Positions 862-16,252 of a stretch of 23,685 nt of DNA are shown piece after piece (within the stretch, counting starts at the first letter, position 1; each line of letters starts with the position of its first letter). The position numbers and the translations under genes are program-made. The notes below the pieces were generated by a model, which did no database searches, was not told where the DNA came from, and worked only from the letters and a program-made list of their open reading frames with translations. Source of the DNA: a virus; the IMG/VR virus record IMGVR_UViG_3300043469_001250, positions 1 to 23,685 of that record; one strand, 5' to 3'.

Positions 862-868
862 TATGACA
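862..868 (-). promoter_or_regulatory. TGTCATA motif copy 1 (TATGACA on +)
   Basis: TATGACAC lies one base after the RusA-like stop codon and just before a hairpin and the leader of the next gene. It belongs to the motif set described at 12797-13080. Confidence 0.5.
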
Positions 869-5174: not shown

Positions 5175-6008
5175 ATGAGTAACGACATCATCAACAAACT
5201 TCGGGCACCGTTTCCCGAAGACCGCATCGAATGGCGAATCCAGTCGTGCGGCGAAAAGACGGACGGTACGGTCTGGGCACGTGTGCTCGCGTACATCGAC
5301 AACCGCTCCGCGATGGAGCGTCTGGACGAGGTCTTCGGCCTCGACTGGTCGCACCGCGAGGAGTTCCACAACATCGGCAACTCTGCCGTCTGCGTCGTGA
5401 CCATCACGACCGCGGGCCGCACCGTCACTGGTTCGTGCGAAGTGGAACTGAACAAGGGCGACGACATCGACCCGTTCAAGTCCGCGGCGAGCGGAGCCAT
5501 GAAGCGTGCCGTCGTGAACCTCGGCATCGGTCGATACCTGTACGACCTGCCTGAAGCGTGGGCCGTCATCAGCGACCGCGGCAAGCATCAGGGCAAGACC
5601 AAGCAGGGCACACGCTTCCGCTGGGATGCTCCGAGCCTCGATGGTGCCGCACGTGCTACGACCGAAGCGTCGTATAATTCCAACTACGTCGCTATCGACC
5701 ACTTGGTGCCGTCGATTAACTCCGCCGCTAGGAGTCCTACTCCCGCAACCGCTCCCGCGGTGACGCCTGTCGCCGACGCTGGAGACTGGCGGAGCGTCGT
5801 CATCCCTTTCGGAAAGCAACAGGGGAAGACGCTTGGTTCGTTGCCCGCGGCTTCTTTGAAGTGGTGGCAGGACAACTACCAGCCGAAGCCGTACAAGGAC
5901 CGCATCAGCGACAAGGACAAGGCGTTCCGTGCCGCCCTCGACGCGAGCATGGCTGGCAAGGCGTTCACCCTCACCGAGGAGGAGCCGAGCGATGACGTCC
6001 CGTTCTAA
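5175..6008 (+). CDS. Rad52/Rad22-family single-strand annealing protein with SSB-like tail
   Basis: 277 aa. Residues 1-130 match the Rad52/Rad22 annealing fold of phage recombinases: FPEDRIEWRIQSCG, VLAYIDNRSAMERLDEVFG, and the hallmark DPFKSAASGAMKRAVVNLGI, then GRYLYDLPEAW. Such proteins form rings that anneal complementary single strands exposed by an exonuclease, here probably the RecE-like protein. After a low-complexity linker (about 160-203), residues 208-235 (VIPFGKQQGKTLGSLPAASL, KWW) resemble the small FGKxxGxxL..LP module of DUF3820-type proteins. The last residues, EEEPSDDVPF, closely resemble the acidic tip of bacterial SSB. The end overlaps the next gene by 17 bases. Confidence 0.88.
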   Translation: MSNDIINKLRAPFPEDRIEWRIQSCGEKTDGTVWARVLAYIDNRSAMERLDEVFGLDWSHREEFHNIGNSAVCVVTITTAGRTVTGSCEVELNKGDDIDPFKSAASGAMKRAVVNLGIGRYLYDLPEAWAVISDRGKHQGKTKQGTRFRWDAPSLDGAARATTEASYNSNYVAIDHLVPSINSAARSPTPATAPAVTPVADAGDWRSVVIPFGKQQGKTLGSLPAASLKWWQDNYQPKPYKDRISDKDKAFRAALDASMAGKAFTLTEEEPSDDVPF

Positions 6009-6210
6009 GTCGACGCCCGCCCGCGAGTGGAAGCAGGTCCGCATTCCGCCCGACGAATGCAAGGCCATCCAGTCCTACGCCTCGAGCGTAGGGCTGGCCT
6101 TCCCCGCCGCCCTGAGGCTGGTTCTGAGGGCTGGCCTAGGTTGGCATACCCCCATGAGCAAAGCCCTGTCTGGGGCCAATCCTGAGGGGTCCCAGCGTAT
6201 GACAAAATAG
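5992..6210 (+). CDS. Small ribbon-helix-helix-like protein
   Basis: 72 aa. The ATG at 5992 lies inside the last codons of the Rad52-type gene, with a purine-rich Shine-Dalgarno (GAGGAGGAG, 5976-5984) that also encodes the Glu run of that protein. A basic N-terminus (TSRSKSTPAREWK) leads into QVRIPPDECKAIQSYASSVG and PAALRLVLRAGLG, a strand-helix-helix order typical of Arc/CopG proteins. It could be a small repressor or RHH-type accessory protein. The TATGACA motif at 6198-6204 encodes part of its final residues. Confidence 0.68.
   Translation: MTSRSKSTPAREWKQVRIPPDECKAIQSYASSVGLAFPAALRLVLRAGLGWHTPMSKALSGANPEGSQRMTK
6198..6204 (-). promoter_or_regulatory. TGTCATA motif copy 2 (TATGACA on +)
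   Basis: Lies three bases ahead of the stop codon at 6208-6210 and about 20 bp before a candidate -35 box. Part of the motif set described at 12797-13080. Confidence 0.5.
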
Positions 6211-7268: not shown

Positions 7269-7684
7269 GCGACCACGTCTTCGGCGAGGGCCAGCCGCCC
7301 AGCGACCAGCCCGCCCCTAACACGGGCGGTCAGTGGTCTCGCTACATCCGCCGCCTGCGGCTCGCCAAGTCTCTTGGGGCGACGCGGCACATCTACATCA
7401 GCCGCGTGCCCAGCGTGCTCCGCGAAGTCGTCGTCAGCGTCGAAACGTTCCCCGACAACGAGTGGGTCTACACCCACGTCGAGACATGGAACCGACCGAC
7501 CGCTCTCAACGTCCTCGGCTCGGACATCTTGAACGCATTCGACGCGACCACTACGCACCCCGTCCGTGCCCCGTTACAGACCGTCAGGGACGCCGATGGC
7601 ACCGTGCTCTACCCCAACGTCCCGACGTGGTCCATCGGGGTCCTAGCGGCCCAGTCCACGTATGACACTGCAACCGAACAATAG
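7265..7684 (+). CDS. Unknown protein, 139 aa
   Basis: Starts at the ATG overlapping the preceding TGA. A Pro/Gln/Gly-rich N-terminus (about 1-25) is followed by a basic helix (SRYIRRLRLAKSLGATRH) and a beta-rich part (IYISRVPSVLREVVVSVETF; VYTHVETWN). Family not recognised. The TATGACA motif at 7661-7667 lies within the last codons, so the unit-end motif is read through by this gene. Confidence 0.7.
   Translation: MSDHVFGEGQPPSDQPAPNTGGQWSRYIRRLRLAKSLGATRHIYISRVPSVLREVVVSVETFPDNEWVYTHVETWNRPTALNVLGSDILNAFDATTTHPVRAPLQTVRDADGTVLYPNVPTWSIGVLAAQSTYDTATEQ
7661..7667 (-). promoter_or_regulatory. TGTCATA motif copy 3 (TATGACA on +)
   Basis: Inside the 3' end of the 7265 gene, 17 bases before its stop. 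ATGACA could also serve as a -35 to TCTACT (7686-7691) with an 18-bp spacer, so here the motif may overlap a promoter. Confidence 0.5.
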
Positions 7685-7773: not shown

Positions 7774-8547
7774 ATGCCTACCATCAACACCATCATCACC
7801 CGCGAAGACGTCAACGTCGCCGACAAGGCGGCGGTCTTCGAGGTCATCCGCGACGCCGTCATCGGCTCGTTCCTCGACGCGTGCCCCTCGGGCGTGACCG
7901 CCGAGGTCCGCGAGTACGACAGCACGACCCTCGGCCTTTCGGGCTGGGAGGTTCGCGTCAACGTGTCCAAGGCCCTCGCCGAAGTCGTCGCCCGTCACGA
8001 GGGTCTGAACGCCATCGGTGCTGGCGTGCACAGCAACGCGGCGTACGGCGTCCAGCGTGAGGTCGTTCGCGGCTACGGCGAAGACATCCAGTTGGCCTTC
8101 GTTCGCCTCGTGCCGAGCCGCGGCTACGGCAACGCCCCGACGACCTACGACCTCGCCGTGACCGTCAACGCTCTCGCCGTCGGTTCCGACGACCGCAACC
8201 AGCACGTCTCGACGACCGAGGACAAGGCGTTCACCGCCCGCACCATCCGCGTCGCGAACATCAGGGCCGCGGCGAAGAAGCAGGGCACCGCTATCTACGA
8301 CGCCCTGCTCGACGCTCAGGTCCGCATTGCTCACCTCGAGCAGACCGCGACCCAGACCATCGCCCACCGCACCGCGACCGCCGAAATTAAGGCCGCGGTC
8401 AAGGCGGACCATGGCATCAACGTCGAGTGGTCCAACCGCCACGACGCGACGACGGGCACCCTGTCGTTCCCGTACCTGACGCCCGCTGACGCCCTCCGCA
8501 TCCTCGAGGCGGTCAAGGCCCTGCCCAACCCCGCCTCTGCCCGCTAA
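7774..8547 (+). CDS. Unknown protein, 257 aa
   Basis: Starts after the C/A-rich repeated leader. The N-terminal 100 residues mix helices and strands (DKAAVFEVIRDAVIGSFLDA; WEVRVNVSKALAEVVARHEG). A long helical stretch (about 165-205, including AIYDALLDAQVRIAHLEQTA) may be a coiled coil, and the end is Pro/Ala-rich. No known family or catalytic motif was recognised. Codon choice is strongly C/G-ending. The stop is embedded in a 6-bp hairpin (8540-8558). Confidence 0.73.
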   Translation: MPTINTIITREDVNVADKAAVFEVIRDAVIGSFLDACPSGVTAEVREYDSTTLGLSGWEVRVNVSKALAEVVARHEGLNAIGAGVHSNAAYGVQREVVRGYGEDIQLAFVRLVPSRGYGNAPTTYDLAVTVNALAVGSDDRNQHVSTTEDKAFTARTIRVANIRAAAKKQGTAIYDALLDAQVRIAHLEQTATQTIAHRTATAEIKAAVKADHGINVEWSNRHDATTGTLSFPYLTPADALRILEAVKALPNPASAR

Positions 8548-8889: not shown

Positions 8890-8911
8890 TTGTCATAGCC
8901 CTCCTTTTTTT
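8881..8911 (+). terminator. Intrinsic terminator containing a TGTCATA motif
   Basis: GAGGGCTA (8881-8888), 7-nt loop, TAGCCCTC (8896-8903), then C and seven T (8905-8911). The 8-bp perfect stem and T tract make a strong Rho-independent terminator for the 8590 gene; the 5' arm includes the stop codon. Confidence 0.85.
8891..8897 (+). promoter_or_regulatory. TGTCATA motif copy 4
   Basis: The motif lies in the loop and first two bases of the 3' arm of the terminator at 8881-8911. It is the only early-unit copy in the + orientation. Confidence 0.5.
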
Positions 8912-8979: not shown

Positions 8980-9987
8980 ATGAGCAACAACACCACCATC
9001 ACCGTCACGAACGTCACCGCCGACCTCGTGCTCACCCTCAAGCCCAAGCAGTTCTGGGACCTCGCGAGCGACGTGCTCACCGCGGTCGCCCCGCTCCTGC
9101 GGGCCAAGGCCAAGGAGTGCGAGGCCGTCTACCGTGCCGCTCAGGACGCTGGCAAGGCTTCCTACGGCTCCGACGCCTACGCTCAGTGGGACCTCGCGTG
9201 CAAGTGCCGCGACTGGGCCGAGAAGGCCGAGCGTCTGCCGAAGAAGCGTATCGAGGACGCCGCCAAGGCCGAGCGTGCCAAGGCCAAGGCCAACAAGGCC
9301 AAGAGCGACAAGGAGCACGTCCGCCTCGTGACGCCTGAGTCCGTGCTCATCCGCGAATCGCTCGAGGTCTGCCGCAAGCACATCGCCGACTCGCACTTCG
9401 CCCGTGGCAAGGTCGCCCTCGCCCACTGGACCAAACTGCTCGTCGAGTTCATCGCCGCCAACCCGTCGTCGACGAAGACCGTCGAGGTCGGCACCAAGGG
9501 CGAGACCTACACCTACGCCGTCGGCAAGTCCTACTACGACTTCAGCCGCCAGTTCCGTGGCGAGCGTGGCCCCCGCGAGGAACTCCTGCTCGTGAAGGAA
9601 GAGAACACCTTCTCGCACCAGACGCCCGTCGCCAACCGCACGCTCAAGGCCGCTCACGTCGCCGAGCGTACGCTCCGTGCCGAGGCCGAGCAGTACGCCG
9701 ACTTCGTCATCGCCACGTACGCCTACCGCGTCGCCGAACGTACCGTCGCCCGCCACTACGCCGCCGTCGGAAAGAAGTACGCCAAGGTCACCGCCGCCAA
9801 GTCGGATAACGACCAAGTCTGGGACGGTGCCGTCATCACGGTCAGCGTCGGCGAGCACACCTACCAGTTCCGCACGACCTGCATCCTGAACTACAGCGTC
9901 TACGGCAAGCCGTTCAACCAGTGGCCCACCCGCGAGATTGCCTCGAGCCACGAGGACGAGACCACCCTCGAGAAGTGGTCCGCCTAA
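8980..9987 (+). CDS. Unknown protein, 335 aa, with FNQWP-type C-terminus
   Basis: The N-terminal third is helical. A Lys/Ala-rich charged segment (about 88-112, KRIEDAAKAERAKAKANKAK) may be a coiled coil or flexible arm. The C-terminal part (AEQYADFVIATYAYRVAERT, then VITVSVGEHTYQFRTTCILN and YSVYGKPFNQWPTRE) resembles the end of several large-phage proteins that finish with a strand and a G-x-x-F-x-Q-W-P motif; their function is not known to me. It has its own promoter and C/A-rich leader, and codons end almost only in C or G. A long open frame on the opposite strand is a by-product of this bias. Confidence 0.75.
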   Translation: MSNNTTITVTNVTADLVLTLKPKQFWDLASDVLTAVAPLLRAKAKECEAVYRAAQDAGKASYGSDAYAQWDLACKCRDWAEKAERLPKKRIEDAAKAERAKAKANKAKSDKEHVRLVTPESVLIRESLEVCRKHIADSHFARGKVALAHWTKLLVEFIAANPSSTKTVEVGTKGETYTYAVGKSYYDFSRQFRGERGPREELLLVKEENTFSHQTPVANRTLKAAHVAERTLRAEAEQYADFVIATYAYRVAERTVARHYAAVGKKYAKVTAAKSDNDQVWDGAVITVSVGEHTYQFRTTCILNYSVYGKPFNQWPTREIASSHEDETTLEKWSA

Positions 9988-10385: not shown

Positions 10386-10392
10386 TATGACA
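10386..10392 (-). promoter_or_regulatory. TGTCATA motif copy 5 (TATGACA on +)
   Basis: TATGACAC lies between the large inverted repeat and the GAAA-loop hairpin, 30 bp before a consensus -35 box. Confidence 0.5.
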
Positions 10393-10395
10393 CTG

Positions 10396-10415
10396 GGCCT
10401 CACGAAAGTGGGGCC
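10396..10415 (+). terminator. GAAA-tetraloop hairpin before the 10479 unit
   Basis: GGCCTCAC (10396-10403), GAAA, GTGGGGCC (10408-10415); the one mismatch is a U-G wobble in RNA. It is followed by TTGGTGTTG, which is only moderately T-rich. It is a weak terminator or a structured insulator, related in sequence to the hairpin at 874-888. Confidence 0.5.
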
Positions 10416-10421
10416 TTGGTG

Positions 10422-10450
10422 TTGACAGGGGGTAGCACACCTGTTCCACT
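10422..10450 (+). promoter_or_regulatory. Promoter for the 10479 gene
   Basis: Perfect -35 TTGACA (10422-10427), 17-bp spacer, TCCACT (10445-10450). The sequence ACACCTGTTC across the spacer and -10 edge is shared with the promoter at 11646-11674. Confidence 0.55.
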
Positions 10451-11599: not shown

Positions 11600-11643
11600 C
11601 CTCAGGCCCTATGACACGTGACCGTGAAATAGATGGCCTGAGG
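11600..11643 (+). repeat. 9-bp inverted repeat enclosing a TATGACA motif
   Basis: CCTCAGGCC (11600-11608) and GGCCTGAGG (11635-11643) with a 26-nt loop that contains TATGACAC. An overlapping direct repeat, ACCCCTCAGG, is at 11585-11594 and 11597-11606. It lies between the end of the 10479 gene and the next promoter. Confidence 0.6.
11610..11616 (-). promoter_or_regulatory. TGTCATA motif copy 6 (TATGACA on +)
   Basis: Located in the loop of the inverted repeat at 11600-11643, about 30 bp before a -35 box. Confidence 0.5.
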
Positions 11644-11645
11644 AC

Positions 11646-11674
11646 TTGACCACCACTCGAACACCTGTTCTATT
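11646..11674 (+). promoter_or_regulatory. Promoter for the 11724 gene
   Basis: TTGACC (11646-11651), 17-bp spacer, TCTATT (11669-11674), with TG one base upstream of the -10 as in extended -10 promoters. This is one of the clearest promoters of the early set. Confidence 0.6.
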
Positions 11675-11723: not shown

Positions 11724-12488
11724 ATGAACAACAACACCGCCATCAACAACCAGAACGTCATCGCCCTCGCCTCCGCGTGGACCGCCGCTTCTGAAATCAC
11801 CCGCGTCGCCTTCGAGGCGTACGACGCCGCCCAGTCGCTGTCGAAGCGGAGCAAGTCCCGCGACCTGCTCATCGCCGCGACCAAGCCCGCGTACGATGCC
11901 GCCAAGGCCACGTCCGACGCCGCGTACGCTACGTTCACCGAAGCCCGCGACGCCGCCTACGCCGCCATCGAGGTCGCCCACCTCGACGCCGCCGTCGACT
12001 CCGCCCTCCAGCGTGCCACCGTCCGCCTCAACGTCGACTACGCTCAGGTCGCCAGCCTGAACGCCATTGCCTCCCGCTTCCGCAAGAGCGTCGAGCAGGG
12101 CGAGTTCAAGGGCCTCCAGAACATCGGCCTCAGCGGCCTGTTCGAGGGCATCGACGTGACCATCGAGACCAGCCACCGCAACACCATCCGCCAGTTCGAC
12201 GTCGGCTTCACCCTCGTCCGTGAAGGCCGCGAGGGCAAGAAGTACGTCAGCCGCTTCAGCCCCGTCCGCGTCGACCTCGACGGCTTCAACCTCACCTCGA
12301 CCAACATCGGTCGCGACGAGATTGCCGCCCACTCGTTCAGCAAGGCTTGGCAGGTCGCCGAGATTCTCGCCGACGTCTGCACCGCCGCCGCCGCCCTCGT
12401 CGACGCCGACCGCAAGGCCCTCAACGCCACCCTCGACGCCGTGTTCGACGCCGCCGACGCCGCCCGCAAGCCCGTCACCGCCCAGTAA
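11724..12488 (+). CDS. Unknown Ala-rich protein, 254 aa
   Basis: The N-terminal half is Ala-rich and helical (NNQNVIALASAWTAASEITR; AYDAAKATSDAAYATFTEAR). The middle (about 130-195) is strand-rich (GLFEGIDVTIETSHRNTIRQ; YVSRFSPVRVDLDGFNLTST), and the end is again Ala/Asp-rich helix. No family recognised. It has its own promoter and leader and a strong terminator 30 bases after the stop, so it is a single-gene unit that may be highly expressed. Codons are almost all C/G-ending. Confidence 0.73.
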   Translation: MNNNTAINNQNVIALASAWTAASEITRVAFEAYDAAQSLSKRSKSRDLLIAATKPAYDAAKATSDAAYATFTEARDAAYAAIEVAHLDAAVDSALQRATVRLNVDYAQVASLNAIASRFRKSVEQGEFKGLQNIGLSGLFEGIDVTIETSHRNTIRQFDVGFTLVREGREGKKYVSRFSPVRVDLDGFNLTSTNIGRDEIAAHSFSKAWQVAEILADVCTAAAALVDADRKALNATLDAVFDAADAARKPVTAQ

Positions 12489-12517
12489 GCCCCAGCGGCC
12501 CACCAGCCGCCCCTCAG

Positions 12518-12544
12518 GCCCTGCCTCACCAGCAGGGCTTTTTT
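12518..12544 (+). terminator. Strong intrinsic terminator closing the early region
   Basis: GCCCTGC (12518-12524), loop CTCACCA, GCAGGGC (12532-12538), then TTTTTT (12539-12544). It ends the last early-type unit and separates it from the control region. Confidence 0.9.
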
Positions 12545-12796
12545 GTGCCCCCACGCCAGACCAGCCCAGCGTGCCCTCCAGCCCCCTCAGGCCATCCCAC
12601 CCCACCCAATCCCCTCCCTAGCCCCTATCCCCGCTCACAAGCCCGCCTAGGCCCCAAGGCCAGCCTGCCCGCTCGCGACCGTCAGGTGCCCGTAAGCCCC
12701 TAGGACCTAGCCCACCTTTGCCCCCCATCCTTCGGATGCCCCAGACCACAGTGGCAATGGCCCAAAAGAATAGCCTCCTGTGCCCGTACAGGCCAC

Positions 12797-13080
12797 TGTC
12801 ATAGCATGCACGGCTCAGTGCCCTGCCCAGTGCCCAAGCCCACCTCCTAGGCCCAGCCAGCCCGTCAGTTACGAACCGAGTCATACCCGTGTCATAGGTC
12901 CGCCGCCTGACCAGTGTCATACACTGTCATACCAGCCAGTGTCATAAACATCTGTCATAGCCTTTCCCGTCATACGTGTCATAGGGGGTGGGGGGGGTCT
13001 CGTGTGTCATACGCGACGGTTGCATCTACGCATTACAACCCACAGAATTATTTGCCAAAAGAGGCTTGCAGTGTGTCATA
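12797..13080 (+). repeat. Array of TGTCATA motifs (9 exact, 2 near copies)
   Basis: Exact TGTCATA begins at 12797, 12890, 12915, 12925, 12940, 12953, 12977, 13005 and 13074; near copies are AGTCATA (12879) and CGTCATA (12968). All are in the same direction and most are preceded by G or C. Spacings are irregular (10-93 bp), unlike CRISPR or simple tandem repeats. The last copy lies within the promoter region of the 13103 gene. Six further copies lie at the ends of early units. Confidence 0.8.
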
Positions 13081-13095
13081 CTAGCCGCATTTACT
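13066..13095 (+). promoter_or_regulatory. Candidate late-operon promoter with embedded TGTCATA
   Basis: TTGCAG (13066-13071) with ATTTAC (13089-13094, 17-bp spacer) or TTTACT (13090-13095, 18-bp). The motif at 13074-13080 lies between the two boxes, a classical operator position. An alternative is TTGCCA (13052-13057) with CATACT (13077-13082), spacer 19 bp. Confidence 0.45.
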
Positions 13096-13102
13096 TGGGT
13101 CC

Positions 13103-13558
13103 ATGGATGACTCTGTCCCCGTGAAGGAAGCCGACGTCGCTAGGCAACTAGGCATGCAACGGAAGGCATTGTCCGATTTGCGTAATACGGTGCTAGAAGC
13201 CGATGATTATTTTCGTGAGGAGGGGAAAAAGCCCGAATCTATGCGGATTGTGTGGCTACGCCCCTCTGGGATAAACAAGATTTCTGTTCATCTTGGCCTA
13301 AAGACCGAAGATGTGGCCCCAAAAAAAATCGCTTCGGCGGCTGACGCCGCCGAGGTTCGCACCTTCACTGTCCAAAAGGTGATGCCCAGAAACCCTTATC
13401 TCGTCGAGGTGCTCGCTGAGAATGGGGAGAAGGGGATTATGAGGGTTAAGGATTCTACCAAATGGGTGAGGGGCATGAAAGTGGAATGCCGCAAGGGTGG
13501 GAACTACACCAAGTGGCTCATCCCGCTCCGCAACCCTCGCTACAAAGGCCGCTTCTAA
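13103..13558 (+). CDS. HTH DNA-binding protein, candidate regulator
   Basis: 151 aa. Residues 8-29 (KEADVARQLGMQRKALSDLR, then N) form a helix-turn-helix. Residues 46-66 suggest a wing or linker (MRIVWLRPSGINKISVHLGL), and 84-148 a strand-rich domain (TFTVQKVMPRNPYLVEVLAE; WVRGMKVECRKGG) that may be OB-like. The gene stands directly behind the TGTCATA array, one copy of which lies in its promoter, so it may be autoregulated and could be the protein that binds the motif. Being the first gene of the terminase operon, it could also be a small terminase or late activator. GC content and codon use are visibly lower and more mixed than in the early genes. Confidence 0.75.
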   Translation: MDDSVPVKEADVARQLGMQRKALSDLRNTVLEADDYFREEGKKPESMRIVWLRPSGINKISVHLGLKTEDVAPKKIASAADAAEVRTFTVQKVMPRNPYLVEVLAENGEKGIMRVKDSTKWVRGMKVECRKGGNYTKWLIPLRNPRYKGRF

Positions 13559-13560
13559 TC

Positions 13561-14211
13561 ATGCTCAAGTTTACCAAAGGTAACTCATACCTGCCGAAAG
13601 GCACGTGGTCGTTTAACCTCCCGAGCGGGTGGTCATGCCCGCAGGCACGCGAATGCCTTGCGATGGCGGACAAGCACGACGGCAAGATTACCAAGGGCAA
13701 GGAACAGACCTACCCCTGCTACTCGGCTACGGTCGAACGCTACCCAGCGGTCCGCAAGCAGGTCTGGGCCAACTTCGACACCATCAAGCACCGCAAGTAC
13801 GAGGAGATTGTCCGTGCCCTGATGGAGGCCCTTCCCGTCAAGGCTACCCACGTCCGTATCCACGGCGGCGGCGACTTCTTCAGTCAGAACTACTTCGACG
13901 CGTGGCTGGCTGTGTGCCGCCTGCGACCAAACGTCCAGTTCTGGGCCTTCACCAAGTCCCTGCCTTTCTGGGTGGCACGTAAGGATGAAATCCCAGTGAA
14001 CCTTTCCCTGACCGCCTCGTATGGCGGTCGTAGCGATTTTCTAATCGAACAGCACAACCTTCGGTACGCCATGGTTGTCCAGTCCGAGGAGGAGGCCAGT
14101 GCACGGGGCCTGCCCGTCGACGTGAACGACTTCCACGCGATGCGTCGCGGCGGCTCGTTCGCCCTAGTCCTCAACTCCAAGCGTAAGAAACTTCCCCCCA
14201 AACAAAAATGA
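13561..14211 (+). CDS. GP88-like conserved phage protein
   Basis: 216 aa, started at the ATG two bases after the previous stop. It shows the pattern of the 'gene product 88' family known from mycobacteriophages and other phages: an early Cys-containing segment (GWSCPQARECLA, C26 and C32), a further YPCYSATVERYPAV (C53), VRIHGGGDFFSQNYFDAWLA (98-117) and FWAFTKSLPFW (127-137). The biochemical role of the family is not established to my knowledge. Three Cys plus the HxxGDF segment may indicate a metal or Fe-S site. It overlaps the next small gene (ATGA). Confidence 0.78.
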   Translation: MLKFTKGNSYLPKGTWSFNLPSGWSCPQARECLAMADKHDGKITKGKEQTYPCYSATVERYPAVRKQVWANFDTIKHRKYEEIVRALMEALPVKATHVRIHGGGDFFSQNYFDAWLAVCRLRPNVQFWAFTKSLPFWVARKDEIPVNLSLTASYGGRSDFLIEQHNLRYAMVVQSEEEASARGLPVDVNDFHAMRRGGSFALVLNSKRKKLPPKQK

Positions 14212-14467: not shown

Positions 14468-14658
14468 TGTTCGAGGCTAAGAATCCAAACCGAAAGGCTA
14501 CCCGACGCTATGCGAAGGGTAAGTCCTACTACGAATCCGCTGTGAAGTTTCAGATGCGGAAGAAGGGTGGGACGTTGAAGTCCTCGGCGGCTCTTCCTAG
14601 CAATCGAGAGTACCACCGAAACTACAGTAGGAAACTACGCAGTAAGGGCGGTGCTTAA
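14467..14658 (+). CDS. Small basic protein, 63 aa
   Basis: Very basic (NPNRKATRRYAKGKSYYESA; YHRNYSRKLRSKGGA), with Tyr and Ser scattered and no hydrophobic core of note. The start overlaps the previous TGA and the end overlaps the TerL GTG by 8 bases. It probably binds nucleic acid or a virion protein. A small-terminase role is conceivable from position but no HTH is visible. Confidence 0.68.
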   Translation: MFEAKNPNRKATRRYAKGKSYYESAVKFQMRKKGGTLKSSAALPSNREYHRNYSRKLRSKGGA

Positions 14659-16252
14659 CCTCACTCCTCATCCTGTTCTCAAGGCCCCCAGTGCGGACGA
14701 AATCCGCAAACTGGTGGCTGAACATGGTGAGGAGAAGGTCCTTCACATCCTTCAACTCCGCGAAGACAAGATTCAGGCGGAGAAAACGGACCCGTATCGG
14801 CACGGGTACGAGCCATTTTACTGGAAAGACGCCGACAGACTGCTCGAGGAGAACGACGAGATGCTCCTGAGCGGCGGAAACCGTGCTGGAAAGACCGAGT
14901 ACGCGGCAAAACGCGTGGTCTACACGCTCGTGAACAAGCCGAACAGCCGTGTTTGGTGCCTTCACACGACTTCCCAGTCCTCAATCCAGATGCAACAGAG
15001 CATCATCTGGAAATATTTGCCCGCTGAACTGAAAACGGTGAAAAAAACGCGGGTCACCAACATCTCCTACACCCAAAAGAACGGTTTTTCCGAGAACTCG
15101 TTCGTTTTGCCCAACGGAAGCCAGTGCTTCTTTATGAATTACGCTCAGGACCGCACTGTTATCGAAGGCGGCGAGACGGATTTCATCTGGTGCGACGAAT
15201 TAGTGCCTCTGGACTGGGTTGAGACGCTCAGATTCCGAAATGTGACCCGCCGAGGCAAGTTGCTGGTCACCTTTACGCCGATTACTGGCTACACGAACGT
15301 CGTTAAGGACTATTTGGCTGGCTGTCGCATCATTCAGACCCAGCCGTCGCGTCTGTTGGACAATTCCCGCAACGTGGTGAACTGCAACAGCGGTACCATG
15401 CCCTACGTCGCCAAGTGCGTCCGAAAAGGGGCAGTAGCAATGTGGTTCTTCTCCGAGTTCAACCCTTACAACCCTTTTGAGCAACTGGCGAAGAGCCTGA
15501 GCGGCAGAACTCAGTATGAGGTGAAGATTCGAGCCTACGGATGGGCTGAATCGCTCCAAGGCACCCAATTTCCGCGTTTCAACGACATCCACGTCCTCGA
15601 GCACTCGAAAGTGCCCTCTGGAGGCATCAACTACTTTGCCTGCGACCCTGCTGGTGCCAGAAACTGGTTTATGCTCTGGATGAGGGTAGCCGAGGACGGT
15701 ACGCGGTATGTGTATCGAGAATGGCCCGACATGTCTGTCGGGGAGTGGGCATTGCCCTCAGAAAAGGCTGACGGCAAGATGGGACCAGCCCAGACCATGA
15801 ACTCTGGTCGCGGCCTCGACGAATACATCCATCTCATCAGGTCCCACGAGGGAACCGAGAATATCGTCGAGCGGTACGTCGACCCGCGTGCTGGCAACAC
15901 TCAGGCGGCTGGCATGGAGCACGGGACGAGCATTATCGAGATGTTTGCGAACAGCGAGGACCCTATGTACCTCACGCCAGCGAGCGGCATCCAAATCGAA
16001 GAGGGCGTCGGCCTGATTAACGATTGGCTGGCCTACGACCAGAACCAGCCCATCAGTGCAGTGAACCAGCCCAAACTGTACATTTCTGACAAGTGCCAGA
16101 ACCTGATTTACTGCCTACGCGAGTGGACTGGACGCGACGGGCAGAAAGGTTGCTCCAAGGACCCTATCGACTGCCTTCGCTACCTCGCGGTGATGAATCC
16201 GCAGTACGAGGACGAAAAGACCTACAAGGCGTCCAACCCATTTTCCTACTAA
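14651..16252 (+). CDS. terL: Terminase large subunit (TerL)
   Basis: 533 aa. It is the packaging motor and headful/end nuclease that pumps DNA into the prohead through the portal. The ATPase has Walker A GGNRAGKT at 75-82, Walker B DFIWCDE at 177-183 with E183 as catalytic carboxylate, and motif III TFTP at 207-210. The nuclease (RNase H-like) has D332 (ACDPAG), D411 (YVDPRAG) and D504/D507 (KDPIDCLRY). The start is a GTG overlapping the previous gene by 8 bases; no closer ATG gives a full N-terminus. A small subunit is not obvious; candidates are the 13103 protein and the partial leftward HTH protein. Confidence 0.95.
   Translation: MLNLTPHPVLKAPSADEIRKLVAEHGEEKVLHILQLREDKIQAEKTDPYRHGYEPFYWKDADRLLEENDEMLLSGGNRAGKTEYAAKRVVYTLVNKPNSRVWCLHTTSQSSIQMQQSIIWKYLPAELKTVKKTRVTNISYTQKNGFSENSFVLPNGSQCFFMNYAQDRTVIEGGETDFIWCDELVPLDWVETLRFRNVTRRGKLLVTFTPITGYTNVVKDYLAGCRIIQTQPSRLLDNSRNVVNCNSGTMPYVAKCVRKGAVAMWFFSEFNPYNPFEQLAKSLSGRTQYEVKIRAYGWAESLQGTQFPRFNDIHVLEHSKVPSGGINYFACDPAGARNWFMLWMRVAEDGTRYVYREWPDMSVGEWALPSEKADGKMGPAQTMNSGRGLDEYIHLIRSHEGTENIVERYVDPRAGNTQAAGMEHGTSIIEMFANSEDPMYLTPASGIQIEEGVGLINDWLAYDQNQPISAVNQPKLYISDKCQNLIYCLREWTGRDGQKGCSKDPIDCLRYLAVMNPQYEDEKTYKASNPFSY

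Follow-up and report, generated by a model that had tools for sequence, protein, structure and literature searches.

A TGTCATA array upstream of a phage terminase operon as a candidate multi-site control region

Described systems closest to the locus

Activator sites of bacterial class I and class II promoters include those of CRP type and the phage P2 Ogr site at about -55. Sites of this kind are short words at a fixed, helically phased distance upstream of the -35 box, as are the isolated copies of TGTCATA described here; however, TGTCATA is an asymmetric 7-mer, usually single per promoter, that also forms a 6-12-copy array elsewhere. Classical iterons of theta origins are longer, regularly spaced and placed beside the initiator gene. 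The present array resembles them in being a series of same-direction repeats adjoining an AT-rich block, but its repeats are 7 bp long and irregular, with the initiator ~10 kb distant.

The repressor of mycobacteriophage L5 binds as a monomer to asymmetric, oriented sites (PMC9283540). As at this locus, its operators and stoperators repeat a single asymmetric, oriented word many times across short intergenic gaps, although the L5 word is a 13-mer, whereas here a 7-mer stands upstream of the -35 box and a dense array runs in the opposite orientation (PMC9283540). The PhoB pho box has the identical half-site word (PMC10294691), but no 11-bp repeat rule is followed here. Finally, a G-run neighbouring the array is built like mitochondrial CSB II (G5-8, one interruption, G4-8; PMC8780183); here, the associated T-run is ~50 nt away, and the likeness is given as an analogy, with no homology claimed. 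The array belongs to a known kind, the multi-site control region, in a form not found described, and a literature search returned no account of this array or of the G-run element.

The array, its gap and its relatives

The IMG/VR record was analyzed over all its 23,685 bases (the window). Nine exact copies of TGTCATA were found on the plus strand only, at 12797, 12890, 12915, 12925, 12940, 12953, 12977, 13005 and 13074, plus the near copies AGTCATA (12879) and CGTCATA (12968), in agreement with the nine exact and two near copies of the first-pass annotation. The remaining six exact copies are at 868, 6204, 7667, 10392 and 11616 on the minus strand and at 8891 on the plus strand. The total of 15 compares with 0.95 ± 0.98 expected from dinucleotide shuffles (0 of 100 reached 15), and the motif is not frequent in coding DNA, so that the claimed enrichment stands. 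One-mismatch words were depleted outside the array (7 vs. 18.5 expected under a third-order model), a ratio equalled or undercut by 1 of 199 permuted control words. No second strong repeat array occurs in the window. Adjacent spacings in this array and in its relatives are irregular (9–37 bp), with no 10–11 bp phasing and a weak half-turn tendency (R = 0.41, from homologous arrays that are not independent).

The array lies in a 614-bp gap between an early ORF (11724-12488) and ORF 13103-13558. In order, the gap contains a terminator, a C-rich/G-poor stretch, a hairpin, the box GTGGCAATGGCCCAAAAGAA, the array with its G-run, and ACGCATT with ATTATTTGCCAAAAG (Table 1). The 13103 gene is followed by a GP88-like gene, two small genes and the terminase. 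A search of 12450-13150 yielded no sigma-70 promoter pair, and therefore neither a late promoter of that type adjoining the array nor the proposed position of the last copy between the promoter boxes of the HTH gene was confirmed. No credible Rfam family was found in the window or gap, hairpin included, and no tRNA in the window. In L140 the hairpin differs in sequence; the conserved box GTGGCAAT...AAAAGAA comes after the hairpin.

Table 1. Positions of sites, gap elements and downstream genes in the window.
Feature	Position	Strand	Remarks
Isolated site, TATGACA-N20-TTGCA read on + strand	862..868	-	
Isolated site, TATGACA-N19-TTGCA read on + strand	6198..6204	-	End of ribbon-helix-helix-like gene
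Isolated site, TATGACA-N30-TTGAC read on + strand	7661..7667	-	
Isolated site, opposite orientation	8891..8897	+	89 bp before gene start
Early promoter TATGACA-N29-TTGACA-N14-TGTTCCACT	10386..10450	+	Box 10422-10450; G002 homologue at 8382
Early promoter TATGACA-N29-TTGACC-N14-TGTTCTATT	11610..11674	+	Box 11646-11674; G002 homologue at 9556
Intrinsic terminator	12516..12544	+	3' of early ORF 11724-12488
Conserved hairpin CATCC-TTC-GGATG	12726-12738	.	Compensated to TGTCC-TAC-GGACA in L150
Conserved box GTGGCAATGGCCCAAAAGAA	12751-12770	.	After hairpin
TGTCATA array, nine exact and two near copies	12797..13080	+	Word count; kept in nine related loci
G-run GGGGGTGGGGGGGG	12984..12997	+	Immediately 3' of a TGTCATA
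ACGCATT box and T-run/AAAAG analogue (ATTATTTGCCAAAAG from 13047)	13028..13061	+	49 nt past G-run
Predicted winged-HTH and OB-like protein	13103..13558	+	Terminase operon gene 1
GP88-like gene	13561..14211	+	PF17338, E = 2.5e-38
Terminase large subunit	14651..16252	+	

Terminase relatives were taken from IMG/VR for comparison of their upstream regions. An array of the same word was present upstream of the terminase, in the same place and orientation, in nine loci (L125, L126, L128, L129, L134, L135, L136, L139 and L150; GC 44–63%), which bears out conservation in close relatives. Copy number (6–12) and spacing vary and the word is constant, with one copy of each array immediately before the G-run. 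The TGTCATA array is real and conserved.

In five loci (L130, L131, L132, L133 and L170) the hairpin, box and G-run are kept and the array is absent. These phages group among array-bearing ones by terminase and major-capsid identity, and the L130 clade therefore probably lost the array. Four contigs of this clade (168 kb) contain one TGTCATA in total, and the word is missing from both the array and the early promoters; avoidance of the word is no more than suggestive, because the result depends on the null model. Another relative, L140, carries 22 dispersed copies and no dense array.

Among isolate phages, no match to the HTH protein or the gap was found except two 25-base chance matches, and the nearest terminase, in the sole relative, is that of Phage C75C1 (TerL 31%). 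Other-word arrays were sought by the G-run in more distant relatives, and few exceeded control windows (AGGCTCT in L149, TCTTTTAG in L290 and TAATTTAC in L259, with TCACTACG in L299 barely above); a lineage-wide array with changing words is therefore not established. A one-direction array of GTAACGCT (6–8 copies) was seen in the more distant relatives L188 (1231-1500) and L202 (1580-1850), in the gap upstream of the terminase and ~1 kb from the G-run. In an IMG/VR scan for triple TGTCATA, the matches listed were mostly tandem or coding repeats; irregular TGTCATA/TATGACA clusters beside C- or G-runs were observed in four other phage contigs (L018, L112, L118 and L092). As a separate observation on word usage, the window has no GATC (0 vs. 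94 expected), nor do G002, G003, G004 and G008, but G005, G006, G007, G009 and G010 have 10–14 per kb.

Isolated copies and the putative regulator

The six copies outside the array fall between early genes or at their extreme ends, ~70–115 bp ahead of likely gene starts; for the ORF at 863, the start was reassigned by eye to about 935 for this distance. Read along the genes, they are mostly TATGACA. Spacers from TATGACA to TTGAC were 29, 29 and 30 bp in the window (19 and 20 bp to TTGCA), 9, 10, 10 and 11 bp in G008 (L140), and 11, 29 and 29 bp in G002 (L128), and G006 (the L150 contig) has TATGACA-N9-TTGACA at five early promoters. Across these four phages, a TTGAC -35 box stood 9–11 or 29–30 bp downstream in 15 of 21 isolated TATGACA sites, once at 27 bp, and never at 12–26 bp. 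Under independent sites this spacing gives P ~4e-24, which is overstated because the sites are related and the offset ranges were picked after the data were seen. The spacers nevertheless agree across phages 25–33% apart in terminase, an agreement that would not be expected in the absence of selection.

Early promoters of the lineage have the common form TTGACN-N13/14-TGNTCYAYT, an extended -10 form, seen in the window (10422-10450 and 11646-11674) and in G002, G006, G007, G009, G011 and G012. The same promoters in G007, G009, G011 and G012 are without the word. Among strict early promoters, the word was found at 10/14 in site-bearing phages vs. 0/14 in the others (Fisher P = 1.5e-4, kinship ignored). 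In G005 and G007 the array is present and word-bearing early promoters are absent, so the array is independent of the early sites.

Because a conserved cluster and single copies at fixed promoter distances share one word, TGTCATA is probably the docking site of a putative gene-control protein. As read from the sequence, the spacing of the isolated sites, helically phased to the -35 box as for an activator, has the geometry of sites at which a transcription regulator binds DNA. The best supported reading is that the array is an upstream control region with multiple sites that governs the early-to-late switch, to which a probability of about 0.5 was assigned; the multi-site operator of the first-pass annotation is favored by the retention of the array in relatives and the helical phasing of the isolated copies. 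In such a scheme, TGTCATA would be recognized by a sequence-specific transcription regulator, encoded by phage or host. Bound to a single copy one to three helical turns upstream of an early -35 box, the protein could touch RNA polymerase, with activation the likelier sign of regulation. At the array, placed between the early-operon terminator and gene 1 of the terminase operon and adjoining the G-run/T-run leader element, several regulator copies may assemble and set expression of the late operon, and as genome copies increase the array may draw the regulator away from the single early sites. Against this reading stands orientation: isolated copies mostly follow transcription, and the array copies are reversed. 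The arrays of G005 and G007 with no word-bearing early promoters, the lack of a sigma-70 late promoter next to the array and the failure of any compared phage gene to track the word also count against it.

Orientation bears also on a repressor. If the copies were asymmetric repressor sites of a temperate phage, similar to L5 stoperators and with the array as a strong operator, the asymmetry of the word and its mainly single orientation at early genes would be accounted for. Such an arrangement is improbable: the sites lie upstream of the -35 box and not over the promoter, the dense array is unlike stoperators, and no repressor or integrase was recognized among the proteins scanned (part of the window's ORFs).

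Five of six genome matches to the terminase profile were Verrucomicrobiota or Kiritimatiellota-type MAGs, and the phage probably infects freshwater Verrucomicrobiota, a host that is likely rather than proven because MAG binning can err. The copies might be half-sites of host PhoB, through which the phage would sense phosphate starvation, given that the half-site word is TGTCATA (E. coli pstS box TGTCATAAAACTGTCATA; PMC10294691). PhoB requires 11-bp repeats; however, only 6 of 48 adjacent array spacings are 11 bp, the array does not follow the pho-box pattern of two half-sites 11 bp apart, the isolated sites are single, and TGTCATAN4TGTCA is absent from five host-type genomes, all of which makes this the most remote of the alternatives. 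In host-type genomes, TGTCAN6TGTCA gave five scattered vs. two control matches, and TATGACA-N8-11-TTGACA was not above chance.

Among the phage genes compared, none had a presence/absence pattern that followed that of the word. The 13103 and 2260 proteins, put forward earlier as binders, have near-identical HTH helices in relatives without the word, so that neither proposal is supported. Five proteins do not track the word: the 13103 protein, the winged HTH encoded at 1997, the O-like protein, a MerR-like protein (16254) and a ribbon-helix-helix protein (5992-6210) all occur in the word-less clade as well, with DNA-reading segments very similar to those of word-bearers. The binder may accordingly have undergone a subtle change of specificity, be an overlooked, fast-evolving small protein, or be a host factor. 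The 13103 protein was predicted to have a winged HTH (~residues 8–63) and an OB-like domain (~residues 86–141) at moderate confidence (pLDDT 79, pTM 0.40); the OB part of the predicted fold resembles IF-1, and in a PDB fold search no match reached E ≤ 0.001. The exonuclease/wHTH/O-like/DnaC-like replication block is strand-flipped in G005-G009, G011 and G012 relative to the window and G002.

The G-run/T-run element and the alternatives tied to it

Of 62 distinct terminase loci whose upstream sequence was long enough, 46 have the G-run there; past the terminase start, 231 kb of sequence gave 2 matches. The G-run to T-run distance was 49–52 nt in 36 of 46 loci with both, and within 200 nt a T-run seldom stood at any other offset. 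The pattern GGGGGAGGGGG-N46-55-TTTTT-N2-5-AAAAG matched 119 IMG/VR stretches vs. ~1 by uniform chance (the author's estimate, with no tool control). A terminase relative was identified in 59 of 116 element loci read, always downstream of the element, and in several loci the start codon of the 13103 homologue was within a few bases of AAAAGG. GGGGGGGAGGGGG is also present in Phage C75C1 and in the Verrucomicrobiota-type MAG contigs L233 and L236. This bipartite element (a G-run with one interruption, ~50 nt, then T-run/AAAAG) precedes the terminase operon in phages whose GC content ranges over 33–66% and is conserved more widely than the adjoining array. The G-run often forms the loop between the arms of an inverted repeat, the sequence of which is clade-specific (L172, L193 and L129).

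A replication origin is the main rival to the control-region reading, albeit an unlikely one. The TGTCATA copies would be iteron-like initiator sites, the G-run would anchor a G-quadruplex or R-loop, the AT-rich T-run would open, and the initiator would also regulate the early promoters through the single copies. One-direction repeats do adjoin the G-run and an AT-rich block, no other strong repeat array is present in the window, and the G-run has the form of mitochondrial CSB II, an element linked to the priming of replication (PMC8780183). In G007 the array coincides with a local minimum in the cumulative GC skew (maximum near 25.7 kb), but the minima of G006, G009, G011 and G012 are elsewhere. 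Of the iteron proposal in the first-pass annotation, the same-direction repeats stand; it is weakened by the irregular spacing (9–37 bp), by the lack of an adjacent initiator gene, as O-like initiator and helicase loader (DnaC-like) genes lie at ~2.1–3.6 kb and the array at 12.8 kb, ~10 kb apart, and by loss of the array in the L130 clade with no clear replacement.

Packaging was also weighed. The array and G-run would be the start site (pac or cos) for the terminase, with the 13103 protein as the small subunit. The element is just upstream of terminase operon gene 1 in many phages and stays with the terminase, the pac site of phage P1 is built with repeated short words, and a few contigs (L189, L199 and L274) begin at the G-run or no more than 20 bp from it, where either the genome physically ends or the assembly broke off. 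Most contigs, however, pass through the G-run, runs of G are themselves a cause of broken assemblies, the 13103 protein matched no small-terminase family, and the copies at early promoters are left unexplained; a packaging start is thus considered improbable, about on a par with the repressor.

With the control-region reading retained as the preferred one, a broader proposal is made tentatively. The array may be a clade-specific add-on to an apparently undescribed element consisting of a G-run (11–15 nt), ~50 bp and T5-7-N2-5-AAAAG, which may be a new late promoter or a G-quadruplex/R-loop start of replication or packaging, served by the neighboring winged-HTH/OB protein and tuned by a TGTCATA-binding regulator. 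The G-run/T-run element is a more novel lead than the array, and since it is kept far beyond the array, its role as promoter, origin or packaging site is directly testable. For the phages themselves, one 7-letter word marks both the early promoters and the early-to-late junction, which would amount to a readable regulatory code in a large uncultured lineage.
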